The notes under the pieces: model-generated | What the model saw: the letters and a program-made list of their open reading frames with translations, nothing else | The model's database searches: none | What the model was told of the DNA's origin: nothing | Program-made: the position numbers and the translations under genes | Source: a virus | Length of the DNA stretch: 21,685 bases | Direction: 5' to 3' (one strand) | Virus record (IMG/VR): IMGVR_UViG_3300032069_000058 | Span: 1-21,685 of that record | Shown: positions 12,233-19,763 of the stretch, one piece after another | Numbering within the stretch: position 1 is the stretch's first letter | Layout of the letters: every line of letters begins with the position of its first letter

Positions 12233-12276
12233 TAGCGCCGCCATCTTGGCGGCATGCCGGCTGGAAGCCGGCGCTA
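12233..12276. repeat. GTAGCG-type palindromic repeat after the tail tube gene
   Basis: The 44-bp element begins TAGCGCCG and ends CGGCGCTA, with two inner perfect hairpins: GCCGCCA-TCT-TGGCGGC (12237-12253) and GCCGGCT-GGA-AGCCGGC (12256-12272). It lies just downstream of the tube stop codon, without a T-run. It looks like a REP-type element of the host that has inserted between phage genes. Confidence 0.75.
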
Positions 12277-12282
12277 CAAAAC

Positions 12283-13326
12283 CTACGTTCCGAGGTATGC
12301 CGCCTCGACGTTTTCAACCGTGACCGTAACGATTTCCGCGGCTGCCGGTTTGAAAACCTGCGGCGACATATCCCACGCGACATACCCGCCGGCGTCGATG
12401 AACTTCGGCGCGGTGATGCGGACGTTGGGCGTATAGATGGTCAACTTGTGAGGCTCGGTGCCGCTGATGATTTCTCCCGTGATGACTACCTTGAAACCCT
12501 GCAAGGTATCACCAACGAAAAGGCCCTTCAGGTCGTCCGGATACTTGGCGAACATGGTCAACTTCAGCACCACCGTCCGTTTACCGATCCAGAACCGGCC
12601 CTTGTAGAGATTGGTGCCGGGATAGTAGGCGGTATCTTCGAGTGCCCCATTCGAGATCTCGATGGAGAATGCCTGGACACGGTCCGCAATCGAAACCTCC
12701 GACCCGGGAGTTCCCAGCAGGATATCGAGCCCCTTCTCGTAGAGATATCCCAGACTGGCCACGGTATCGAGCGCGGGCACGTTAGCCAAATCGGCGTCGA
12801 CGTAATCACCACTGCCGATCCACTTCGAGCTGATTTGCAGGACCGGCTGGCCGCGGGAATAGGAGACTGAGAATCCCGCGCACACCGCACCCTTCGACTT
12901 GACCCGCAGATCCGGCGCCATCTTAAACCAGTGTCCGGTCGAAGGAACTTGGTGACTGATAGTGACCGGGTCCTGGAAAATGATGACGTGCTCGTAGGCG
13001 GCAGGCGGTCCCACGGCCTTCTGCGTGGTCGTCACTTTCCCCATGCCGAAGGCGGCGATGTGCCCGGCCACCAGCGCGCTTAATTCAAAGTTCAGCGGAT
13101 AACTCAGGTTCTGGCGGGTCTGGGCGCGTTCGGTGGGCCATTCTGAACCTTTCCAGGCTTTGTCGGCATCATCCAGAAAGGTTTTCACGATCTCCGGGGA
13201 ATCGAAACCGCTCGGGGGCGTGGAACGCGTGAACTTGGCATCGGCCAGCGCCGTGCCGTAGGCTGTCTCCTTATTCGGGGAGAAGGCAAACCGCCCTTCG
13301 TAGGGTCGTTGTGGTTCGAATGGCAT
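12283..13326 (-). CDS. Major tail tube protein
   Basis: A 347-residue protein that should form the tube of a long non-contractile tail. It begins with a typical tube N-terminus (EGRFAFSPNKETAYGTALAD) and is rich in beta strands with two similar halves (about 1-190 and 195-347), as seen in siphovirus tube proteins. ATG 13326 follows GGAGGTTTTGCC, a strong ribosome site. No sheath gene lies beside it, which separates this tail from the contractile tail of Mu itself. The chaperone-like genes and tape measure follow downstream. The family call rests on the N-terminal pattern plus gene order. Confidence 0.82.
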   Translation of the reverse strand: MPFEPQRPYEGRFAFSPNKETAYGTALADAKFTRSTPPSGFDSPEIVKTFLDDADKAWKGSEWPTERAQTRQNLSYPLNFELSALVAGHIAAFGMGKVTTTQKAVGPPAAYEHVIIFQDPVTISHQVPSTGHWFKMAPDLRVKSKGAVCAGFSVSYSRGQPVLQISSKWIGSGDYVDADLANVPALDTVASLGYLYEKGLDILLGTPGSEVSIADRVQAFSIEISNGALEDTAYYPGTNLYKGRFWIGKRTVVLKLTMFAKYPDDLKGLFVGDTLQGFKVVITGEIISGTEPHKLTIYTPNVRITAPKFIDAGGYVAWDMSPQVFKPAAAEIVTVTVENVEAAYLGT

Positions 13327-13382
13327 GGCAAAACCTCCGATTCAGAATAGGGAGCCACGATCTAATCGGGGCCCGTATTTTC

Positions 13383-13423
13383 AATGCCGCTTCCTTTGAG
13401 AAACTTTTTGCTGAGGCGGCATT
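13383..13423 (-). mobile_element. 41-bp palindromic mini-element, copy 1
   Basis: On the minus strand it runs AATGCCGC, then CTCAGCAAAAAGTTTCTC and AAAGGAA, then GCGGCATT. The 8-bp ends are perfect inverted repeats. It is preceded by AAAGTTG and followed by GAAAA. Its left boundary overlaps the TGA stop codon of the 68-residue gene, so the insertion sits exactly at that gene's end. Confidence 0.7.
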
Positions 13424-13629
13424 CAACTTTCGGTTTCCGCGATCTCCTCAAACCAGCCGGTAGCCTGGAGGAACAGCAACCATTCCCCCCGCGTGGCAGA
13501 AAATGGTTGATCCGACCGCCGAAAAGTGCCCGCAAAACGCACGTTGCCGAGACTGACTTCCTCCGGAGCGTCGACTTTCAACTTGAAATTTATCCAATCC
13601 TGTCCGTGTTGCTCTTTCTCTTGGGTCAT
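13423..13629 (-). CDS. Small hypothetical protein before the tail tube
   Basis: A 68-residue protein beginning MTQEKEQHGQDWINFKLKVD and ending GWFEEIAETES, with WLLFLQATGWF as the hydrophobic core. ATG 13629 has the ribosome site GAGGAAACC. In Mu a small gene (gp38) occupies the equivalent slot after gp37, but I see no clear sequence likeness. The stop codon TGA is formed at the edge of mini-element copy 1 and a double copy lies just upstream of the start. The open frame extends further upstream, but that part is the shadow of the gp37-like gene plus repeats. Confidence 0.75.
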   Translation of the reverse strand: MTQEKEQHGQDWINFKLKVDAPEEVSLGNVRFAGTFRRSDQPFSATRGEWLLFLQATGWFEEIAETES

Positions 13630-13654
13630 GGTTTCCTCGGTACTTTTAACGTTC

Positions 13655-13695
13655 AATGCCGCTTCCTTTGAGAAACTTTTTGCTGAGGCGGCATT
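13655..13695 (-). mobile_element. 41-bp palindromic mini-element, copy 2
   Basis: Same sequence and orientation as copy 1, perfect over all 41 bp. It is preceded on the minus strand by GAAAGTTG and followed by GAACGTTAAAAG. Only 15 bp separate it from copy 3, and those bases (GAAAGTCGAAAGTTG) match the flanks of copy 4. Confidence 0.75.
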
Positions 13696-13710
13696 CAACT
13701 TTCGACTTTC

Positions 13711-13751
13711 AATGCCGCTTCCTTTGAGAAACTTTTTGCTGAGGCGGCATT
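13711..13751 (-). mobile_element. 41-bp palindromic mini-element, copy 3
   Basis: Identical to copy 2 and in the same orientation. It is preceded on the minus strand by AAAAAAAGTTG and followed by GAAAGTCG. It lies 13 bp past the stop codon of the gp37-like gene. Confidence 0.75.
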
Positions 13752-13763
13752 CAACTTTTTTTC

Positions 13764-14222
13764 TCATTCCGTATTCACAAAGTGCGTGTCCACCTCGAGC
13801 TCCATTACGTACCAGGTGCCTTCGCTCGAGTGTTGGAGCAACTCCTCGCCAACCCATCCCAGCAACCCCTGACCCCCGGACGCGAACGTAATTTTCTTGC
13901 CCGGAAGCGTCCGCAAAGCATCGAGCAAATCGTAGGCACCTTTCGCGCCAGTGGCCGTGTCGCCTTGCTGCTCCGCGAGCGCCCCGCGGAGGTTCGACGC
14001 CCCGACAGCCACCCTCCAATGCGGCTTGGCGACGTAACTCAACCCGCGCACCCCCTTCGACTGTCCCAGGCCGCCAGCGTAAATCACCAGCACCGCCGGG
14101 GGAATCGCCAGGATGTCGCCATCGTCGTCGAAGTGCTGGCTCGCCGCCGTTTGCACGCTGATGCCGGGCAGGGTCGCCTTCACCAAGTCGATAATCGCAT
14201 TCTCGATCTCAGCGAGTTTCAT
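13764..14222 (-). CDS. Mu gp37-like protein (DUF1834 type)
   Basis: A 152-residue protein with the features of the gp37 family of Mu-like phages: N-terminal IENAIIDLVKATLPG, central PAVLVIYAGGLG, a W-containing strand (WRVAVGASNLRG), then GAYDLLDALRTLPGKK. The family is found after the G-like morphogenesis gene and is thought to act at the head-tail joint or tail terminus. ATG 14222 has no good ribosome site. The 136-bp gap to the G-like gene is filled by repeats, including mini-element copy 4, so its expression may depend on read-through from upstream. Confidence 0.85.
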   Translation of the reverse strand: MKLAEIENAIIDLVKATLPGISVQTAASQHFDDDGDILAIPPAVLVIYAGGLGQSKGVRGLSYVAKPHWRVAVGASNLRGALAEQQGDTATGAKGAYDLLDALRTLPGKKITFASGGQGLLGWVGEELLQHSSEGTWYVMELEVDTHFVNTE

Positions 14223-14248
14223 TGAAAAGAGTTAAGAGTCGAAAGTTG

Positions 14249-14289
14249 AATGCCGCCTCAGCAAAAAGTTTCTCAAAGGAAGCGGCATT
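14249..14289 (-). mobile_element. 41-bp palindromic mini-element, copy 4 (inverted)
   Basis: Perfect copy in the opposite orientation to copies 1-3: on the plus strand it starts AATGCCGCCTCAGC and ends GGAAGCGGCATT. Its flanks (CGAAAGTTG and GAAAGTCGAAAGG) continue into a repeat that recurs at 19691-19756 without the insert, giving an occupied and an empty version in one window. The strand label follows the element's position in the operon rather than its orientation. Confidence 0.8.
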
Positions 14290-14358
14290 GAAAGTCGAAA
14301 GGTCTTGCTTTGAACTTTTAACTTTCGACTCTCGACTGCCCTTTTGGACTTTTCACAA

Positions 14359-14991
14359 TCACCATTCACCCACTGGGGCCGGTCCACCACCGCCCGCGCG
14401 GGTCCCGCCGGGATCGAACGTGGCGCGCAGATAATCGCGCGCAGCTTCCGCCAACCGCGCGGGGTCCTCCGGTCTCAGGACCAAGTACCGTCGCGCGGGC
14501 ATCAATACGCGTTTCGCGAACATAAACTGCCCACCGCCAATCGGGAAGCGCAGGAACTTCCGATTCTTCGGCACAATCGTGCCGCCGAGCTGATGGATGC
14601 GCGCCCCTCTCCAATTTGATCCGATACGCACCAGGCTGGCAGCCGCATCCACCGCAAACGTCACGGTGCGGGCGAGACTTCCTGACGGCCCTCCCAGAAT
14701 CTTTTCGGTTTTATTCCAGCGCAAAAAGCCTGCGGTATTCTGCCCGGACTGCTGGAACGCTTTGCGCGAGCGCTTTTTCCCGTGCTCGTATTTGGCGATG
14801 CGCGATCCAGCAAACACTCGCCGCCAGCTTCCCGCCGGGGAGCCTTCCTCGTAAAACGTCTGCATCACCGAGCCCAGCATCAGGCTCCCCAGGATGCGCA
14901 GCACCGGCCCTTTGTCCCGGAGGCGTTGCGCCAGGTTGCCGAATTTCCCCAGCGCTTCCGTTGCATTAATCCTGAAAACAGGTTCGCTCAT
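14359..14991 (-). CDS. Virion morphogenesis protein, Mu gpG-like
   Basis: A 210-residue protein of the phage virion morphogenesis family (Mu G; tail completion or head-tail joining). Typical pieces in order: MQTFYEEGSPAGSWRRV (43-59), a basic stretch (GKKRSRK), VRIGSN, IHQLGG (132-137), and PARRYLVLRPED (165-176). ATG 14991 lies 20 bp after the gp36-like stop codon and has only a distant GAGGGAAT as ribosome site, suggesting coupled translation. It sits between the gp36-like and gp37-like genes, exactly as in Mu-like phages. Confidence 0.88.
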   Translation of the reverse strand: MSEPVFRINATEALGKFGNLAQRLRDKGPVLRILGSLMLGSVMQTFYEEGSPAGSWRRVFAGSRIAKYEHGKKRSRKAFQQSGQNTAGFLRWNKTEKILGGPSGSLARTVTFAVDAAASLVRIGSNWRGARIHQLGGTIVPKNRKFLRFPIGGGQFMFAKRVLMPARRYLVLRPEDPARLAEAARDYLRATFDPGGTRAGGGGPAPVGEW

Positions 14992-15011
14992 AAGCTAATG
15001 GCCGGATTCCC

Positions 15012-15443
15012 TCAGAATTTATCGAGGTTGTCATCTGAGAATGTCCCTAGCTTCTCCGTCGTGCGCACTTGCTGAGCATCGGACTGCGCCGTGGCCCCCG
15101 TAGGCTGATCCACCTGGGCGCGCCCTGCCGCCAAGTCTTTCAAAAAGGCCATCGCCGCCTCGTAAGCTTTCTGCGTATCCTCCCGGATGGCCCGGCGGCG
15201 CTGTTCGAGATACCAGATGGTCAAAGCCCGAGCCAGTTGCTTCACTTTGACGGAGGTGGCGAGCGGCGTAGCATAGCGTCCCCGGGCATAACTATCGATA
15301 TCGGCGCCCGCCGCCTCGATTGCCGCCGTCACCCGCGCCTGCGCCGCCGCGCCCAACATTCCGGTATTCTCATCGTCCGTGAGCTGGATCAGTTCCGCCT
15401 CGGTGATGAAGTCTTTCAGTTCCGCCAGGGTGATATACGCCAT
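15012..15443 (-). CDS. Mu gp36-like protein (DUF1320 type)
   Basis: A 143-residue helical protein with the family pattern: YITLAELKDFITEAELIQLTDDE, then a helix with AAIEAAGADIDSYARGRYATPL and QLARALTIWYLEQRRR, then a charged C-terminus with FLKDLAAGRAQ. Mu gp36-like proteins act in head completion or neck formation. Start and stop overlap the preceding gene as TAATG, indicating translational coupling. The final 35 residues are less conserved in type and likely flexible. Confidence 0.88.
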   Translation of the reverse strand: MAYITLAELKDFITEAELIQLTDDENTGMLGAAAQARVTAAIEAAGADIDSYARGRYATPLATSVKVKQLARALTIWYLEQRRRAIREDTQKAYEAAMAFLKDLAAGRAQVDQPTGATAQSDAQQVRTTEKLGTFSDDNLDKF

Positions 15444-15751
15444 TATTCCTCAACAACGAACACATCGATGTCGCCTTCCAAACTCTGTCCGGTGGAAGTC
15501 GTCACCTTGACCGTGACCTTGTGGTGTTCGCCATCCACGCCATCCTTGAGCCAGAAGACGACCTTCGTTCCCGTCACCGCCGGTGCGGGGCTGCTGCCCA
15601 CAAGGGCGCTGGTCGAATCGGCGCCGGTCGCCAAGTTGACGCTGGCAACCGAAACCAGCGTCAACGTTTCCCCTGCCACCAAGCGCAGAGCGAAGTCAAG
15701 GCTGTAGTCCTGGACCTCATACGGCTGCTTCTGAATGGTTCCAACGCTCAT
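15443..15751 (-). CDS. Ig-like structural protein, fibre-tail adaptor-like
   Basis: A 102-residue all-beta protein. The order KQPYEVQDYSLDFALRL, then TLVSVASV, then VVFWLKDGVDGEHHKVTVKVTTSTG matches phage proteins annotated as fibre-tail adaptors or small Ig-like capsid proteins. ATG 15751 follows directly after the stop codon of the 53-residue ORF (TAA ATG) with AAGGACC as ribosome site. Its end overlaps the gp36-like start. The exact place in the virion cannot be read from the sequence. Confidence 0.7.
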   Translation of the reverse strand: MSVGTIQKQPYEVQDYSLDFALRLVAGETLTLVSVASVNLATGADSTSALVGSSPAPAVTGTKVVFWLKDGVDGEHHKVTVKVTTSTGQSLEGDIDVFVVEE

Positions 15752-15913
15752 TTACAGGTCCTTGTGCTCTCGACGGCTTTTGAATTCCCCCCGCTTCGCA
15801 AGGAGAGCGAGTTTCTCCTTCGCTCGCAGGCTAAAGCTTCGTTTGGGAGGAACCACAACGCCACAGTAAAACGCTCCATCATCGAAAATCGGGAAACTAA
15901 AGGCGCCGGTCAT
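15752..15913 (-). CDS. Small basic ORF (53 aa)
   Basis: A 53-residue peptide beginning MTGAFSFPIFDDGAFYCG and ending with the basic stretch KRGEFKSRREHKDL. ATG 15913 has a modest GGGGGATTGAA upstream. Its stop codon TAA is immediately followed by the ATG of the Ig-like gene, which supports real translation and coupling. No family is recognised. It is short, so coding status rests on the frame and spacing. Confidence 0.55.
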   Translation of the reverse strand: MTGAFSFPIFDDGAFYCGVVVPPKRSFSLRAKEKLALLAKRGEFKSRREHKDL

Positions 15914-15969
15914 TTCAATCCCCCACTCATACCCATCCTATTGCCTCCGCCATCCAGGCGAAGTTCCGG

Positions 15970-17064
15970 TCACCGCGACACGTTTCGGAACCAAATCAAA
16001 TAATCCGCATCAAGTATTACGTTTGAGGTGCTGTTTGCTATTGCCTGCCAAACGATCCGTAGCCCGCTGTCCGTCCGATTCAACGTGCTGGTGGCGACCA
16101 AGGAACCGTTGATGTAAAATCGTGTAGACGTGGCATCGCCCTCCATTCTGAGGACAATCCAAGCGCCAGCGGAGGCTGGGACGAGCGTATCAATATCGTT
16201 CGTCCCGCTGGACTTCGTGATTGCTCGCCAATTGGGGCTTGCCGCGGAGTCATACTCGAAAAAATGCCCCGCAGTCGGTGGATTAGCGTTGTGGGCCGTG
16301 AATACCCCAGCCCGGAATTTGGCGTTGGTGAGCGTCGAGAGTTGAATCGCCGATTCCCACCGCCAGAGTGGATCGCTCGCCAGGCCACCGACTGAATAAT
16401 TAGCATAGATGTACACGAACTCACCGGCGCCTGGCACAGTTCCTGACTCGATATGAACAGTGCCGGGGTGGTTCGCGTCCATTAACGCCCCGCCAATGTA
16501 TCCGGTATTGCCGGACGGACTGCCAATCGCGCCAAAAGCCGCACTGTCCGACGAGATGAAGTCTGCGAACACAAAGCTGGTCGGATGGGTGTAAGTGGGC
16601 AAATTGGCTGCGGGCAATTTCGCCGAAGCGTCCAAGGGCGCGTAGCCGCTCGCGATGTTTTTGTTCGCCGTGGCCTCTTTGGCGGCAAGGTCAGTGACTA
16701 AGTTCGTCACATCGCCTTCGGCATGCGCGTGCGCAGGAAGTTGTGTGCCCGGCAACTTAGTTGTGGCATCAAGCGTAGCCACGCCGCTCGCTGCGCCCTT
16801 TTCCGTCACAGGGATAGCGCCCACATCGCCCGCCGTGGCGTCCGCGCCTGCCGTAACAATCCCCTGAGCGTTGTAGGTGATTTTGGTCTTTGTCGCCCCG
16901 CTTACGGCGGCCTTGTCCGCCTTGGCGGCAAGGTCGGTGACCAGGCCTGTAATCTCCGCCTCAGTGAGATTCCCGGTGTGGTCGGCATTCCAGTGGGATG
17001 CCTGGACCTGGGTGGGGTCGGTGCCATCGGGCTTCGATGATGTGAAGGCGTGCTTTATCGGCAT
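15970..17064 (-). CDS. Tail-fibre-like protein with C-terminal lectin-like domain
   Basis: A 364-residue protein. The N-terminus (KPDGTDPTQVQASHWNADHT) is a common opening of phage fibre proteins. Repeats follow: TDLAAK at 43-48 and 123-128, and the paired GVATLDATTKLPGTQLP and GYAPLDASAKLPAANLP, as in fibre shafts. The C-terminal 195 residues resemble a concanavalin-type lectin or LamG sandwich (AWIVLRMEGDATSTRFYING near the end), suitable for glycan binding. ATG 17064 has no ribosome site; a 22-residue leader frame overlaps the start. Its location between capsid genes is unusual for a fibre, so it may decorate the head or be a displaced tail fibre. Confidence 0.75.
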   Translation of the reverse strand: MPIKHAFTSSKPDGTDPTQVQASHWNADHTGNLTEAEITGLVTDLAAKADKAAVSGATKTKITYNAQGIVTAGADATAGDVGAIPVTEKGAASGVATLDATTKLPGTQLPAHAHAEGDVTNLVTDLAAKEATANKNIASGYAPLDASAKLPAANLPTYTHPTSFVFADFISSDSAAFGAIGSPSGNTGYIGGALMDANHPGTVHIESGTVPGAGEFVYIYANYSVGGLASDPLWRWESAIQLSTLTNAKFRAGVFTAHNANPPTAGHFFEYDSAASPNWRAITKSSGTNDIDTLVPASAGAWIVLRMEGDATSTRFYINGSLVATSTLNRTDSGLRIVWQAIANSTSNVILDADYLIWFRNVSR

Positions 17065-17123
17065 CTGTCAATACTCACAAGTTCGGTCCGCGAGGAATAA
17101 CCGAGCTGCCACATTGCGCTCAT
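17055..17123 (-). CDS. Possible 22-residue leader peptide overlapping the fibre start
   Basis: ATG 17123 follows GCGAGGTGAAGC, a good ribosome site, and encodes MSAMWQLGYSSRTELVSIDR plus two residues; its TAA stop lies inside the first codons of the fibre gene. Ribosomes ending here could restart at ATG 17064, which has no ribosome site of its own. Coding is inferred from the ribosome site and overlap, not from homology. Confidence 0.4.
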   Translation of the reverse strand: MSAMWQLGYSSRTELVSIDRCR

Positions 17124-17133
17124 GCTTCACCTC

Positions 17134-17172
17134 GCAAGGAGCCGAAGGAGCTGAACTCCTCGACTCCTCGGC
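17134..17172. promoter_or_regulatory. Long purine-rich hairpin before the leader ORF
   Basis: GCAAGGAGCCGAAGGAG and CTCCTCGACTCCTCGGC can pair as a 17-bp stem (13 Watson-Crick pairs, two wobbles and two mismatches on the minus strand) around a 5-base loop. It starts 18 bases past the stop codon of the signal-peptide protein and ends just before the leader's ribosome site. There is no T-run, so it may be an RNA stability or attenuation structure rather than a terminator. Confidence 0.4.
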
Positions 17173-17190
17173 TTCTTCGACTTCTTCGAA

Positions 17191-18072
17191 CTACTGCGTC
17201 AGCACTCGCGCCGACGTCGTCGCCGCATCAGTCGTCAGGCACAGCGCCTTGGTAGTGCCCACCAGAGACTCGACTGGATAAAATCCAATCGCTGGCGATC
17301 CTGCCCCAATGGAAAGTAGAGTCGCAGTGCCGGTGCCACAGTTGGTCCCCGTCCCGGAGCTCACCGTAACCAATCCTGTTGTCGCGGTCGCCTTCTCGAC
17401 GAAGACTCCCAGCAGGACAATCGACCCAGAGCCAGGCGCTGCCACCACTTGCGTCATAGTAGCGCTCGCCACGGCCGCTGATAGAGTGCCGAGCCTCCCC
17501 ACTTGCAACACGCCGGCGCCCTGTGCCCCCACACCATTCGAGACGTCCAGGAAACCAGTCGTGCCGTTAGTGAGTCGTGTGTACCAGTAACTCCCCGGAG
17601 CGCCCGAGCCCGTCGATTGCGTCACAGCGCTGAGGGTAGCATTTAGATTCCACCCCACCCCGTTGATGAGCGTCCGGTAGATGGTGATGCTTCCCGAGCC
17701 CGTCCACGAACTCACCGTCCCGAGGAGGTATTGGTCAATGTTGTTGACTACCTTGTTCACGTCCGCAGCACAGGAAAAATTGTTGTTGGCATCATCGAGC
17801 GCGTTGGTCGCCGTGGCGGCCGTCTGACCCCCATAGAACGTCAGGGTGCAGGCGGAGACGGTGCCAGTCTTGCGGACGCTGACCAGCATGGCGGCATAAT
17901 TGCCGACATACTCGGCCGCCGTCGTCAAGTTGCCGTTGCCCGTCATCACGATGCCGGCGTCCATGGCGCGTTTCGAAATCACCACCGGCGTGCGTGTCTG
18001 CGCGAAAACCGGCAAGGCCATGGCTAGCGCCAGCAGCCCTGCCAGAAGAAAAGATAATCCTCGGTTCTTCAT
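17191..18072 (-). CDS. Secreted protein of unknown function with signal peptide
   Basis: A 293-residue protein. Residues 1-24 form a clear Sec signal peptide: MKNR, a hydrophobic Leu/Ala core, and a VFAQ cleavage site. The rest is rich in Thr, Ser, Gly and Ala with beta-strand patterns, and has four cysteines spaced to allow disulphides, which fits an exported protein. I choose ATG 18072 because AAAGGAGAAC precedes it; an upstream in-frame ATG at 18126 lacks one. It lies directly after the major capsid gene, where structural proteins are expected, but those rarely carry signal peptides. It could be a lysogeny-expressed cargo gene or a virion protein that passes through the membrane. No family is recognised. 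Confidence 0.75.
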   Translation of the reverse strand: MKNRGLSFLLAGLLALAMALPVFAQTRTPVVISKRAMDAGIVMTGNGNLTTAAEYVGNYAAMLVSVRKTGTVSACTLTFYGGQTAATATNALDDANNNFSCAADVNKVVNNIDQYLLGTVSSWTGSGSITIYRTLINGVGWNLNATLSAVTQSTGSGAPGSYWYTRLTNGTTGFLDVSNGVGAQGAGVLQVGRLGTLSAAVASATMTQVVAAPGSGSIVLLGVFVEKATATTGLVTVSSGTGTNCGTGTATLLSIGAGSPAIGFYPVESLVGTTKALCLTTDAATTSARVLTQ

Positions 18073-18087
18073 TTCGTTCTCCTTTGG

Positions 18088-18103
18088 CCCCGACGCGTCG
18101 GGG
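18088..18103. promoter_or_regulatory. 16-bp perfect palindrome before the secreted protein gene
   Basis: CCCCGACGCGTCGGGG is a perfect palindrome just upstream of the AAAGGAGAAC ribosome site of the secreted protein. It may be an operator, an RNA hairpin near the ribosome site, or part of an intergenic repeat. No promoter boxes are evident. Confidence 0.4.
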
Positions 18104-18149
18104 CGGAAATTCAGCGTGCGATTCACAACTACACTTCATCCGACGTAAA

Positions 18150-18216
18150 CGTAGCGTCCCGATTTATCGGGACATCCCGAAGGGGACATGGTGGCGATCT
18201 AAAGATCGCCGCTACG
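18150..18216. repeat. GTAGCG-bounded palindromic repeat after the capsid gene
   Basis: The 67-bp element starts CGTAGCG and ends CGCTACG, with inner hairpins GTCCCGAT-TT-ATCGGGAC (18156-18173) and GGCGATCT-AA-AGATCGCC (18193-18210). A further small hairpin, CCGTC-GCCT-GACGG (18220-18233), lies beside the capsid stop codon. It shares the GTAGCG edge with the repeats at 1210 and 12233. Confidence 0.75.
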
Positions 18217-18235
18217 AATCCGTCGCCTGACGGAC

Positions 18236-19195
18236 TCAGATCGCGCCGGTGATCAACGCTCCAGCATCCGCTGTGGTGATCTTCACATCGGAATGCCAGA
18301 AATGGACGTCCACGGCGCGCCCTTTGCGCCCCGGGGGGTAGAGGTCGTAGGTTTCCACCCCGATCCCGCCCACCGTATCCGGCGCCCCCGACCACAGAAA
18401 CGTCTTGGCAAAGCTGACGTCCTGCATCGAGGGACTGACCGCGGTGTAGCCAATCCAGATGGTGCCGGCCGTCCAGGCGAAGCCTTTAACCCCGCCCGCC
18501 TTCTTGCGCGCCGAACTCAGCGAGCAGGGGATCTCGAAGACTTGCGCGATCTGTTGCAGGGTGATCGCGCCGCCCACCACGTTCACGAAGCGCTTCTTGA
18601 TGTCTTCGTGAACTTTGAGCGCGGCCAGGACGTCCCAACTGAAGACGATCCGGTTGGGGGTGAACCCGCAACCCAGCGCGACAGCTTTCGCCAGGCCGAG
18701 GATGTCGCCGATGGGATCGGAATTGAGGGGATCCGACCACTTCTTGCCGCCACTGAGCGCCAACTTGTTCCCGGCGCCGTAGGCGCTGCCAGCGGTGACC
18801 GTGGCGATCAACGCGAGTTCGCGCTTCAGCCGGATGATGCGTTCCAGAGCCTGCTGGGTCGCCCGCTGTTCGGGTGAGTAGATGCCCTGAGCCGCCCGCT
18901 CCTCTTCGCGGGCATAGGGAAAGGTGGCCGCATGGTCTTCGCACTGGTAACTATCGCGCGAGAGACTGGCGGCCAGTTCCTTCGGCGCCGCCAGAGGGCC
19001 GCGGACCACGTCGCCGGGATCCTCGAGCGCTTCCTCGCCGAAGATGACGTACTTGCCGCCCTGGTCGGGGACCGAAGCGAGCGGGGCAATCACGTCGGCG
19101 ACGAATGCCGAAGGCGCATTGACCTGCTCGATGGCGAAGTTCGTCAGATCGAGATCGACGTGCGCCGCAAACGGATTCGTGATCAGACTTGGCAT
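18236..19195 (-). CDS. Major capsid protein
   Basis: A 319-residue protein at the place of the major capsid gene, between decoration protein and head-completion genes. The family pattern includes an N-terminal arm (NPFAAHVDLDLTNFAIEQVNAP), a long helix (ERIIRLKRELALIATV), an FTPNRIVFSWDVLAALKVHEDIKK stretch typical of HK97-fold capsid proteins, and a C-terminal strand region (GRAVDVHFWHSDVKIT). ATG 19195 follows AGAAGGAGAACCT. The size fits a T=7-type capsid subunit. The fold is inferred from pattern and context, not from a structural match. Confidence 0.88.
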   Translation of the reverse strand: MPSLITNPFAAHVDLDLTNFAIEQVNAPSAFVADVIAPLASVPDQGGKYVIFGEEALEDPGDVVRGPLAAPKELAASLSRDSYQCEDHAATFPYAREEERAAQGIYSPEQRATQQALERIIRLKRELALIATVTAGSAYGAGNKLALSGGKKWSDPLNSDPIGDILGLAKAVALGCGFTPNRIVFSWDVLAALKVHEDIKKRFVNVVGGAITLQQIAQVFEIPCSLSSARKKAGGVKGFAWTAGTIWIGYTAVSPSMQDVSFAKTFLWSGAPDTVGGIGVETYDLYPPGRKGRAVDVHFWHSDVKITTADAGALITGAI

Positions 19196-19214
19196 AGGTT
19201 CTCCTTCTGAAATT

Positions 19215-19259
19215 CAGGTTTCAGGTTACAGGTTACAGGCGGGCCGTCAGTTGACGGCC
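19215..19259. repeat. CAGGTT/ACAGGTT repeats and hairpin
   Basis: Three to four tandem CAGGTTTC/CAGGTTA units (19215-19237) are followed by a perfect hairpin GGCCGTCA-GT-TGACGGCC (19242-19259). It lies upstream of the ribosome site of the capsid gene, between it and the decoration gene, and resembles a simple host intergenic repeat. Confidence 0.6.
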
Positions 19260-19285
19260 TGTCACCTATCCCCTCTAACCTGGTC

Positions 19286-19675
19286 TTACGCGCCTTGCAT
19301 GGTACTCGGGGCAATCTCTGCCTCGAACAGATCGTCTTCGAGCGTGGCGAGAGTCAGCGCCACTCCGGCGCAGAGCGCATTGACCCCGGAAGCCGGCGCT
19401 GCCGCCTTCCACTTGCCATCCGTGCCGGCGACCTCGATGAGATCTCCGACATTGATGCCGGATTTGGCTACGCAGACCGCCTGGCCCGCCGTGACGATAG
19501 TCAACGGTCGCCCGGCGGCATCCGCTTTGATCAGAGTGACGCCCAACGAGCGCACTCCCGCCCCCGTGGGCAGTTTGGCCTGTGCGTTGGTATCGGTCCC
19601 CGGCATCACGGCCAGGCCCGCGCCGATCGCGCCGCCTTCCGCCAGCCGGGTAATGGTGCTTCTCGGTTCTGCCAT
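19286..19675 (-). CDS. Head decoration protein
   Basis: A 129-residue all-beta protein matching capsid decoration proteins found before the major capsid gene: GAGVRSLGVTLIKADAAGRP, TIVTAGQAVCVAKSGINVGDLIEVAGTDGKWKAA, then ALTLATLEDDLFEAEIAP. It would bind the mature capsid surface and stabilise it. ATG 19675 follows AAGGAGCACAAC, a strong ribosome site. The length agrees with the family. The preceding gap holds the empty copy of the mini-element target repeat. Confidence 0.85.
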   Translation of the reverse strand: MAEPRSTITRLAEGGAIGAGLAVMPGTDTNAQAKLPTGAGVRSLGVTLIKADAAGRPLTIVTAGQAVCVAKSGINVGDLIEVAGTDGKWKAAAPASGVNALCAGVALTLATLEDDLFEAEIAPSTMQGA

Positions 19676-19690
19676 GTTGTGCTCCTTGTC

Positions 19691-19756
19691 GAAAAGTTAA
19701 GACTCGAAAGTTGAAAGTCGAAAGGTCTTGCTTTGAACTTTTAACCTTCGACTTTT
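19691..19756. repeat. AAAGTCGAAAG repeat: empty site of the mini-element
   Basis: GTTAAGACTCGAAAGTTGA is followed directly by AAGTCGAAAGGTCTTGCTTT, GAACTTTTAACCTTCGACT. The same string, with two single-base differences, flanks mini-element copy 4 near 14230-14330, with 42 extra bases inserted after GTTGA. AAAGTCGAAAGGT (19714-19726) can pair with ACCTTCGACTTT (19744-19755), with one bulge, to form a large hairpin. Confidence 0.8.
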
Positions 19757-19763
19757 GACTTTT

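Follow-up and report, generated by a model that had tools for sequence, protein, structure and literature searches.

The stretch of DNA analysed here, called the window below, comes from a tailed soil phage. It is a 21,685-bp virus record of IMG/VR and carries head and tail genes, of which all that could be identified lie on the minus strand. Five IMG/VR fragments (L133-L137) encode a neck protein with about 60% amino acid identity to that of the window, together with other proteins whose identity to their counterparts reaches about 85%, and the capsid protein of L006 is 94% identical to the window's. A search for the host with the major capsid protein gave a best identity of about 35% among Terriglobia genomes, 28% in one genome of Verrucomicrobia and no strong match in a phylum sample, and neither Terriglobia nor Verrucomicrobia was adopted as the host. 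A phage DNA collection searched with positions 13300-14400 of the window gave no match. Near the left end of the record a short tandem repeat, GAGAATAGTTTGGAGGT, is present in about 3 copies at 110-175, and a 132-bp tandem repeat of 5.9 copies is found at 1415-2187, within a protein gene near the tail genes. The latter encodes a 44-residue repeat (..SPDGINWTIRTSAADNDW..AWSPELGLFAAVA..) that is probably propeller-like.

A pattern search of the window detected a 41-bp hairpin, AATGCCGCCTCAGCAAAAAGTTTCTCAAAGGAAGCGGCATT, in exactly four copies with no differences among them, whereas control patterns rendered 0 matches. The copies are spread over about 900 bp and three gene junctions. Copy 1 (13383-13423, minus strand) immediately adjoins the stop codon (AGT TGA) of the gene that terminates at this point. 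Copies 2 (13655-13695) and 3 (13711-13751), both on the minus strand, share the junction 13654-13763 (minus strand), where they form a 100% identical tandem (13652-13758) with a period of 56 bp (8 x 7). Copy 4 (14249-14289, plus strand) is located in a junction of 136 bp (14223-14358, minus strand), where it breaks the left arm of a 7-bp-periodic palindrome. Copies 1-3 are sense and copy 4 antisense to transcription.

The palindrome occupied by copy 4 comprises a left arm (AGTTAAGAGTCGAAAGTTG, 14230-14248) and, beyond the hairpin, the remainder with an inner hairpin and the right arm (14290-14337), both on the plus strand. The same palindrome is found without the hairpin at 19694-19759 (plus strand). 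Copy 4 has exactly 42 bp extra, as the initial annotation had noted: when these are taken out of 14230-14337, the two sequences align without gaps over 66 bp, from AGTTAAG to CGACT. The two single-base differences counted there hold for the first 59 bases only, since the full 66 bp contain four, at alignment offsets 8, 51, 59 and 61. The 41-bp perfect repeats and the shared 66-bp palindrome are far beyond chance. The empty form folds as a hairpin (z -3.25) and the occupied form as a branched structure (z -4.54), and the hairpin of copy 4 splits an arm of a palindrome in which the two arms pair. Lying 5.4 kb from each other, the sites are paralogous and not allelic, and therefore the pair is no proof of movement. 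Their description as occupied and empty sites in one window is correct in that they are a real pair of the same palindrome, but they do not represent an allelic before and after; nor are they the rare evidence of movement for which they had been taken, with precedents known such as the REPs in target palindromes of Thermomicrobium roseum (PMC3733652).

Around the junctions the sequence is GTTGAA-TGCCGC...GCGGCA-TTGAAAG when occupied and GTTGAAAG when empty. Six start points for the 42 bp yield an identical empty sequence, so that the shared junction word is the 5-bp TTGAA, GA being part of it. An insert of 40 bp plus a 2-bp GA duplication, as originally proposed, is one of these six equal readings, but GA is not fixed by them, and 1-5 bp of TTGAA are equally possible. 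In the widest reading a 37-bp core (TGCCGC...GCGGCA, 14251-14287 in copy 4, plus strand) lies between two TTGAA, at 14246-14250 and 14288-14292 (plus strand), and the empty form has a single TTGAA (19711-19715, plus strand). Ends of TGCCGC and GCGGCA with TTGAA on both sides are present in all four copies. MITEs are recognised by terminal inverted repeats together with a target-site duplication of fixed length; because the same word flanks every copy here, such a duplication is inseparable from a TTGAA carried by the element itself. A 13-codon frame, ATG...TGA (MPPQQKVSQRKRH), in the 42-bp insert was rejected as a coincidence, since the stem supplies its ATG/CAT and the flank its TGA, and since the copies face both ways relative to the genes.

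The flanks common to the four copies are AAAGTTG at the left and GAA at the right, and every hairpin sits at AAAGTTG^AA, in one orientation relative to this motif, which agrees with the expectation that the junctions always fall after GTTGA. The window contains 21 GTTGAA words and only 5 AAAGTTGAA words, four of them occupied and one empty; the chance of choosing AAAGTTGAA sites among the GTTGAA words is 0.0008, a figure that ignores selection against coding sites. The word GTTGAAAGTCGA occurs without hairpin in coding sequence at 13582.

The target motif belongs, as a single unit, to a 7-bp-periodic array, which at copy 4 is palindromic and composed of the units AAAGTTG and AAAGTCG. When the two hairpins are taken out of the junction 13654-13763, a continuous heptad array results: AAAGTTG AAAGTCG AAAGTTG AACGTTA AAAGTAC. 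A 12-mer of the heptad palindrome occurs 29 times in one Terriglobia (Acidobacteriota) genome, versus once for the reversed control, and many of the heptad palindromes in that material have long stems. A heptad 20-mer is also present in Flavobacterium, Phycisphaerae, Anaerolineae and others; this type of array is therefore widespread and no proof of the host. Palindromes of AAAGTTG and AAAGTCG recur across unrelated phyla in the loci collected (L009-L117), which include Flavobacterium, Phycisphaerae, Paludibacteraceae and Terriglobia. Further 7-bp-periodic stretches, of the CAGGTTA and CAGAAGG types, are located in the window at 19205-19280 and 2660-2720.

The homologous junctions in related phages were compared with those of the window. 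The 136 bp that carry copy 4 in the window correspond in L133-L137 to an ATGA by which the neck gene overlaps the gene that follows it, and the place of copies 2 and 3 is taken there by a junction of a few bases with a ribosome-binding site; in L007 the genes likewise abut at the copy-4 junction. At the junction of the empty palindrome, L006 and L135 carry other palindromes, and neither the empty nor the occupied palindrome was found at either place in any close outgroup. At these homologous loci, the comparison of which had been suggested, relatives at 60-85% amino acid identity are free of the window's arrays and hairpins. It is very probable that the lineage of the window's phage acquired both, loss in the relatives being formally possible.

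Palindromes of other kinds also vary at these junctions. Among L133-L137, which are 92-94% identical, some carry a 19-bp palindrome (GCCTGCCTATCGCAGGCAG) at an allelic position where others lack it, and a 39-bp REP-like tandem repeat changes in copy number (see L135, 6747-6846 and 7729-7888), which indicates that palindromes turn over at these phage junctions. This variation is a better before-and-after set than the occupied and empty pair of the window. Related phages also differ in the heptad arrays of the same junctions. Pairs of GTAG-tagged palindromes in the classic REPIN layout (GTAG hairpin ... hairpin CTAC or CTATA) were observed in gene junctions of the window at 12233-12277 and 18151-18215, the first of which was not found in 195 Verrucomicrobia and 200 Terriglobia genomes. 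In L006, many gene junctions between 1142 and 8701 carry palindromes (ATTGAGTG / CACTCAAT) that are 8-bp-periodic, those of the window being 7-bp-periodic.

Neither IMG/VR nor the genome samples searched yielded a close relative of the hairpin. With the loop core fixed, its pattern had 0 matches in IMG/VR viral contigs; an exact 24-mer had 0 in genome contigs, and 399 Terriglobia gave 0 when as many as 3 mismatches were allowed. When about 1 Mb of fetched loci was scanned for GC-rich hairpins bordering on AAAGTYG, the only ones other than heptad arms were the four of the window. The stem with a free loop matched only a terminator-like hairpin and coding sequence, and TTGA plus the stem gave two look-alikes in 396 Acidobacteriota, both read as coding. 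A Y1 transposase (PF01797) is absent from the 21.7-kb window and from the related phage fragments, all of which are fragments; genes for such enzymes are present in the sampled Terriglobia that carry the same heptad palindromes.

Our preferred reading, to which we give somewhat less than an even chance, is that the 41-bp hairpin belongs with the insertion elements of the REP/MITE kind, being small, palindromic and non-autonomous, and that it has a strict target, was copied into pre-existing arrays and was mobilised in trans. The arrays would have come first and the hairpin would then have been copied into them: single-stranded DNA would fold into the hairpin, a cut would be made beside it and the element joined 3' of GTTGA by a putative Y1 (HUH) transposase that the host would provide in trans, a route suggested for REPs, each insertion leaving TTGAA on both sides. 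A host Y1 transposase, favoured because of the analogy with REPs (PMC3116915, PMC6006769), would be the most economical agent. Insertion into existing arrays is favoured because an arm of a self-pairing palindrome is broken and because the orientation of the hairpin follows the target and not transcription. Structure and parsimony also favour insertion over loss, although slippage between the TTGAA repeats would yield the same empty form. In support of the preferred reading stand the difference of exactly 42 bp with TTGAA on either side, the occupation of four of the five AAAGTTGAA sites, the continuous heptad array restored at copies 2 and 3, the abutting genes or short normal junctions of five relatives at the same places, the turnover of other palindromes among L133-L137, the GTAG-tagged pairs of the window and the Y1 genes of the sampled Terriglobia. 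Against it count the lack of a transposase in the phage fragments and of a GTAG or CGTC foot, and the 0 copies of a donor hairpin in the genomes searched; the copies are also few, only four, of which copies 2 and 3 may represent a single tandem duplication, and their clustering in some 900 bp would be consistent with local copying too. A more far-reaching version, in which a hairpin with a 37-bp core moves alone as DNA into the nine-base target AAAGTTG^AA, in fixed orientation and with TTGAA ends, by means of an enzyme other than a GTAG-type RAYT, and in which heptad palindromes serve as safe intergenic landing pads, appears improbable to us.

The serious and main rival to transposition is that recombination or template switching between heptad arrays spread the hairpin from junction to junction, with no transposase, the hairpin travelling together with its array flanks and copies 2 and 3 being a tandem duplication. 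Its probability is appreciable, though clearly lower than that of our preferred reading. Such copying would account for identical copies so close together, for the 60 identical bases, flanks included, that copies 3 and 4 have in common, for the exact 56-bp tandem and for the variation of heptad arrays at the same junctions among related phages. However, the right flanks of copies 1 and 2 match the others for GAA only and then diverge, and GAA alone is too short for homologous recombination, so that micro-homology template switching would be required; moreover, copy 4 is inverted relative to the other three.

It can also be the case that the empty form at 19694-19759 is the product of a deletion, by slippage between the TTGAA repeats, of a hairpin formerly present there, that is, a loss and not a gain. 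Direct repeats of 5 bp such as those around the hairpin are a textbook substrate of slippage deletion, removal would leave exactly one TTGAA, and, the two palindromes being duplicates, one ancestor could have held the hairpin. We nevertheless regard this as unlikely: three more copies in other surroundings imply that the hairpin spread anyway, and at copy 4 it breaks one arm of a palindrome that pairs. That the hairpins are conserved RNA elements (terminators or mRNA stabilisers) under selection is very improbable, for although they fold well and lie between co-directional genes, their orientation to transcription is mixed, they are missing from all relatives, and no terminator was called at the copies, where an intrinsic one was discarded as the sense strand, which reads GCGGCATTGAA in the first three copies and GCGGCATTCAACTTTCG in the fourth, has no T-run.

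For REP-like palindromes, few clear insertion junctions are available. In this phage all four copies agree in junction word, orientation and target, an unoccupied paralogous target is present in the same 21.7 kb, and the relatives provide an element-free background. Furthermore, phage gene junctions gather several palindromes of host type, namely heptad or octad arrays, GTAG REPs and the 41-bp hairpin, and related phages carry different kinds of palindrome at one and the same junction.

Among known systems, REPs and REPINs, which RAYT (TnpA-REP, Y1 HUH) transposases mobilise, are similar in being short intergenic palindromes in several identical copies, single or paired. REPs measure 20-40 bp, comparable to the 41-bp hairpin in its gene junctions, they are thought to move as single-stranded DNA (PMC3116915, PMC6006769) and sometimes sit inside other palindromes (PMC3733652). 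The hairpin differs in its lack of a GT[AG]G or CGTC foot, in its four copies, in its location in a phage and in having no transposase seen alongside. One strand has GTTG (or TTGA) as its foot, GTTG being also in the empty site, and the bases that precede the hairpin on the other strand end in TTC in every copy; with no GTAG or CGTC foot, it is kept out of the REP families defined by these tags. REPs are further characterised by many host copies and a cognate RAYT. The hairpin gave 0 matches in the genome samples, none of them known to be from the host, and the phage fragment has no Y1 gene. In Thermomicrobium roseum, GTAG-23 REPs lie within small target palindromes of which the genome has hundreds of copies, and CGTC-1 repeats of Halothiobacillus neapolitanus likewise sit inside target palindromes (PMC3733652). 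Both resemble the present case in that a small palindrome is inserted into a larger repeated one, but they are tagged and chromosomal and have other targets, while the hairpin is in a heptad-array palindrome of a phage. Repeats of class 3 Y1 transposases, in Acidobacteria and Planctomycetes, are atypical hairpins without GTAG, many of them in Solibacter usitatus, and have the foot CnGA in place of TTGA or GTTG (PMC6006769).

IS200/IS605 elements are joined by a Y1 transposase 3' of a fixed short target, in a specific orientation and with no duplication of the target. The hairpin has the target GTTGA and a fixed orientation, but the TTGAA on both sides may be either a duplication or a carried word, and the Y1 enzyme that is missing from the phage fragments may act in trans. 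Bacterial heptanucleotide arrays, such as those of TAACTGA, are intergenic direct repeats of one unit (PMC4679880); those of the phage are also 7-bp-periodic and intergenic, but their units vary (AAAGTTG, AAAGTCG) and form palindromes. Hairpin elements (RHE) of sponge and fungal mitochondria have spread in the intergenic DNA of compact genomes, and in Allomyces no flanking duplication was reported (PMC2800124). These too are small hairpins spreading intergenically, although mitochondrial and of other sequences. T4-type phages reportedly have mobile regulatory stem-loop cassettes, said to have been described by Arbiol in 2010, that are intergenic, shuffle among genomes and carry promoters. The hairpin is, like them, an intergenic stem-loop of a phage, the carriage of promoters being a trait of the T4 cassettes. 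Overall, it resembles the small palindromic repeats of bacterial genomes, of which it is a clean example, though not a unique one.
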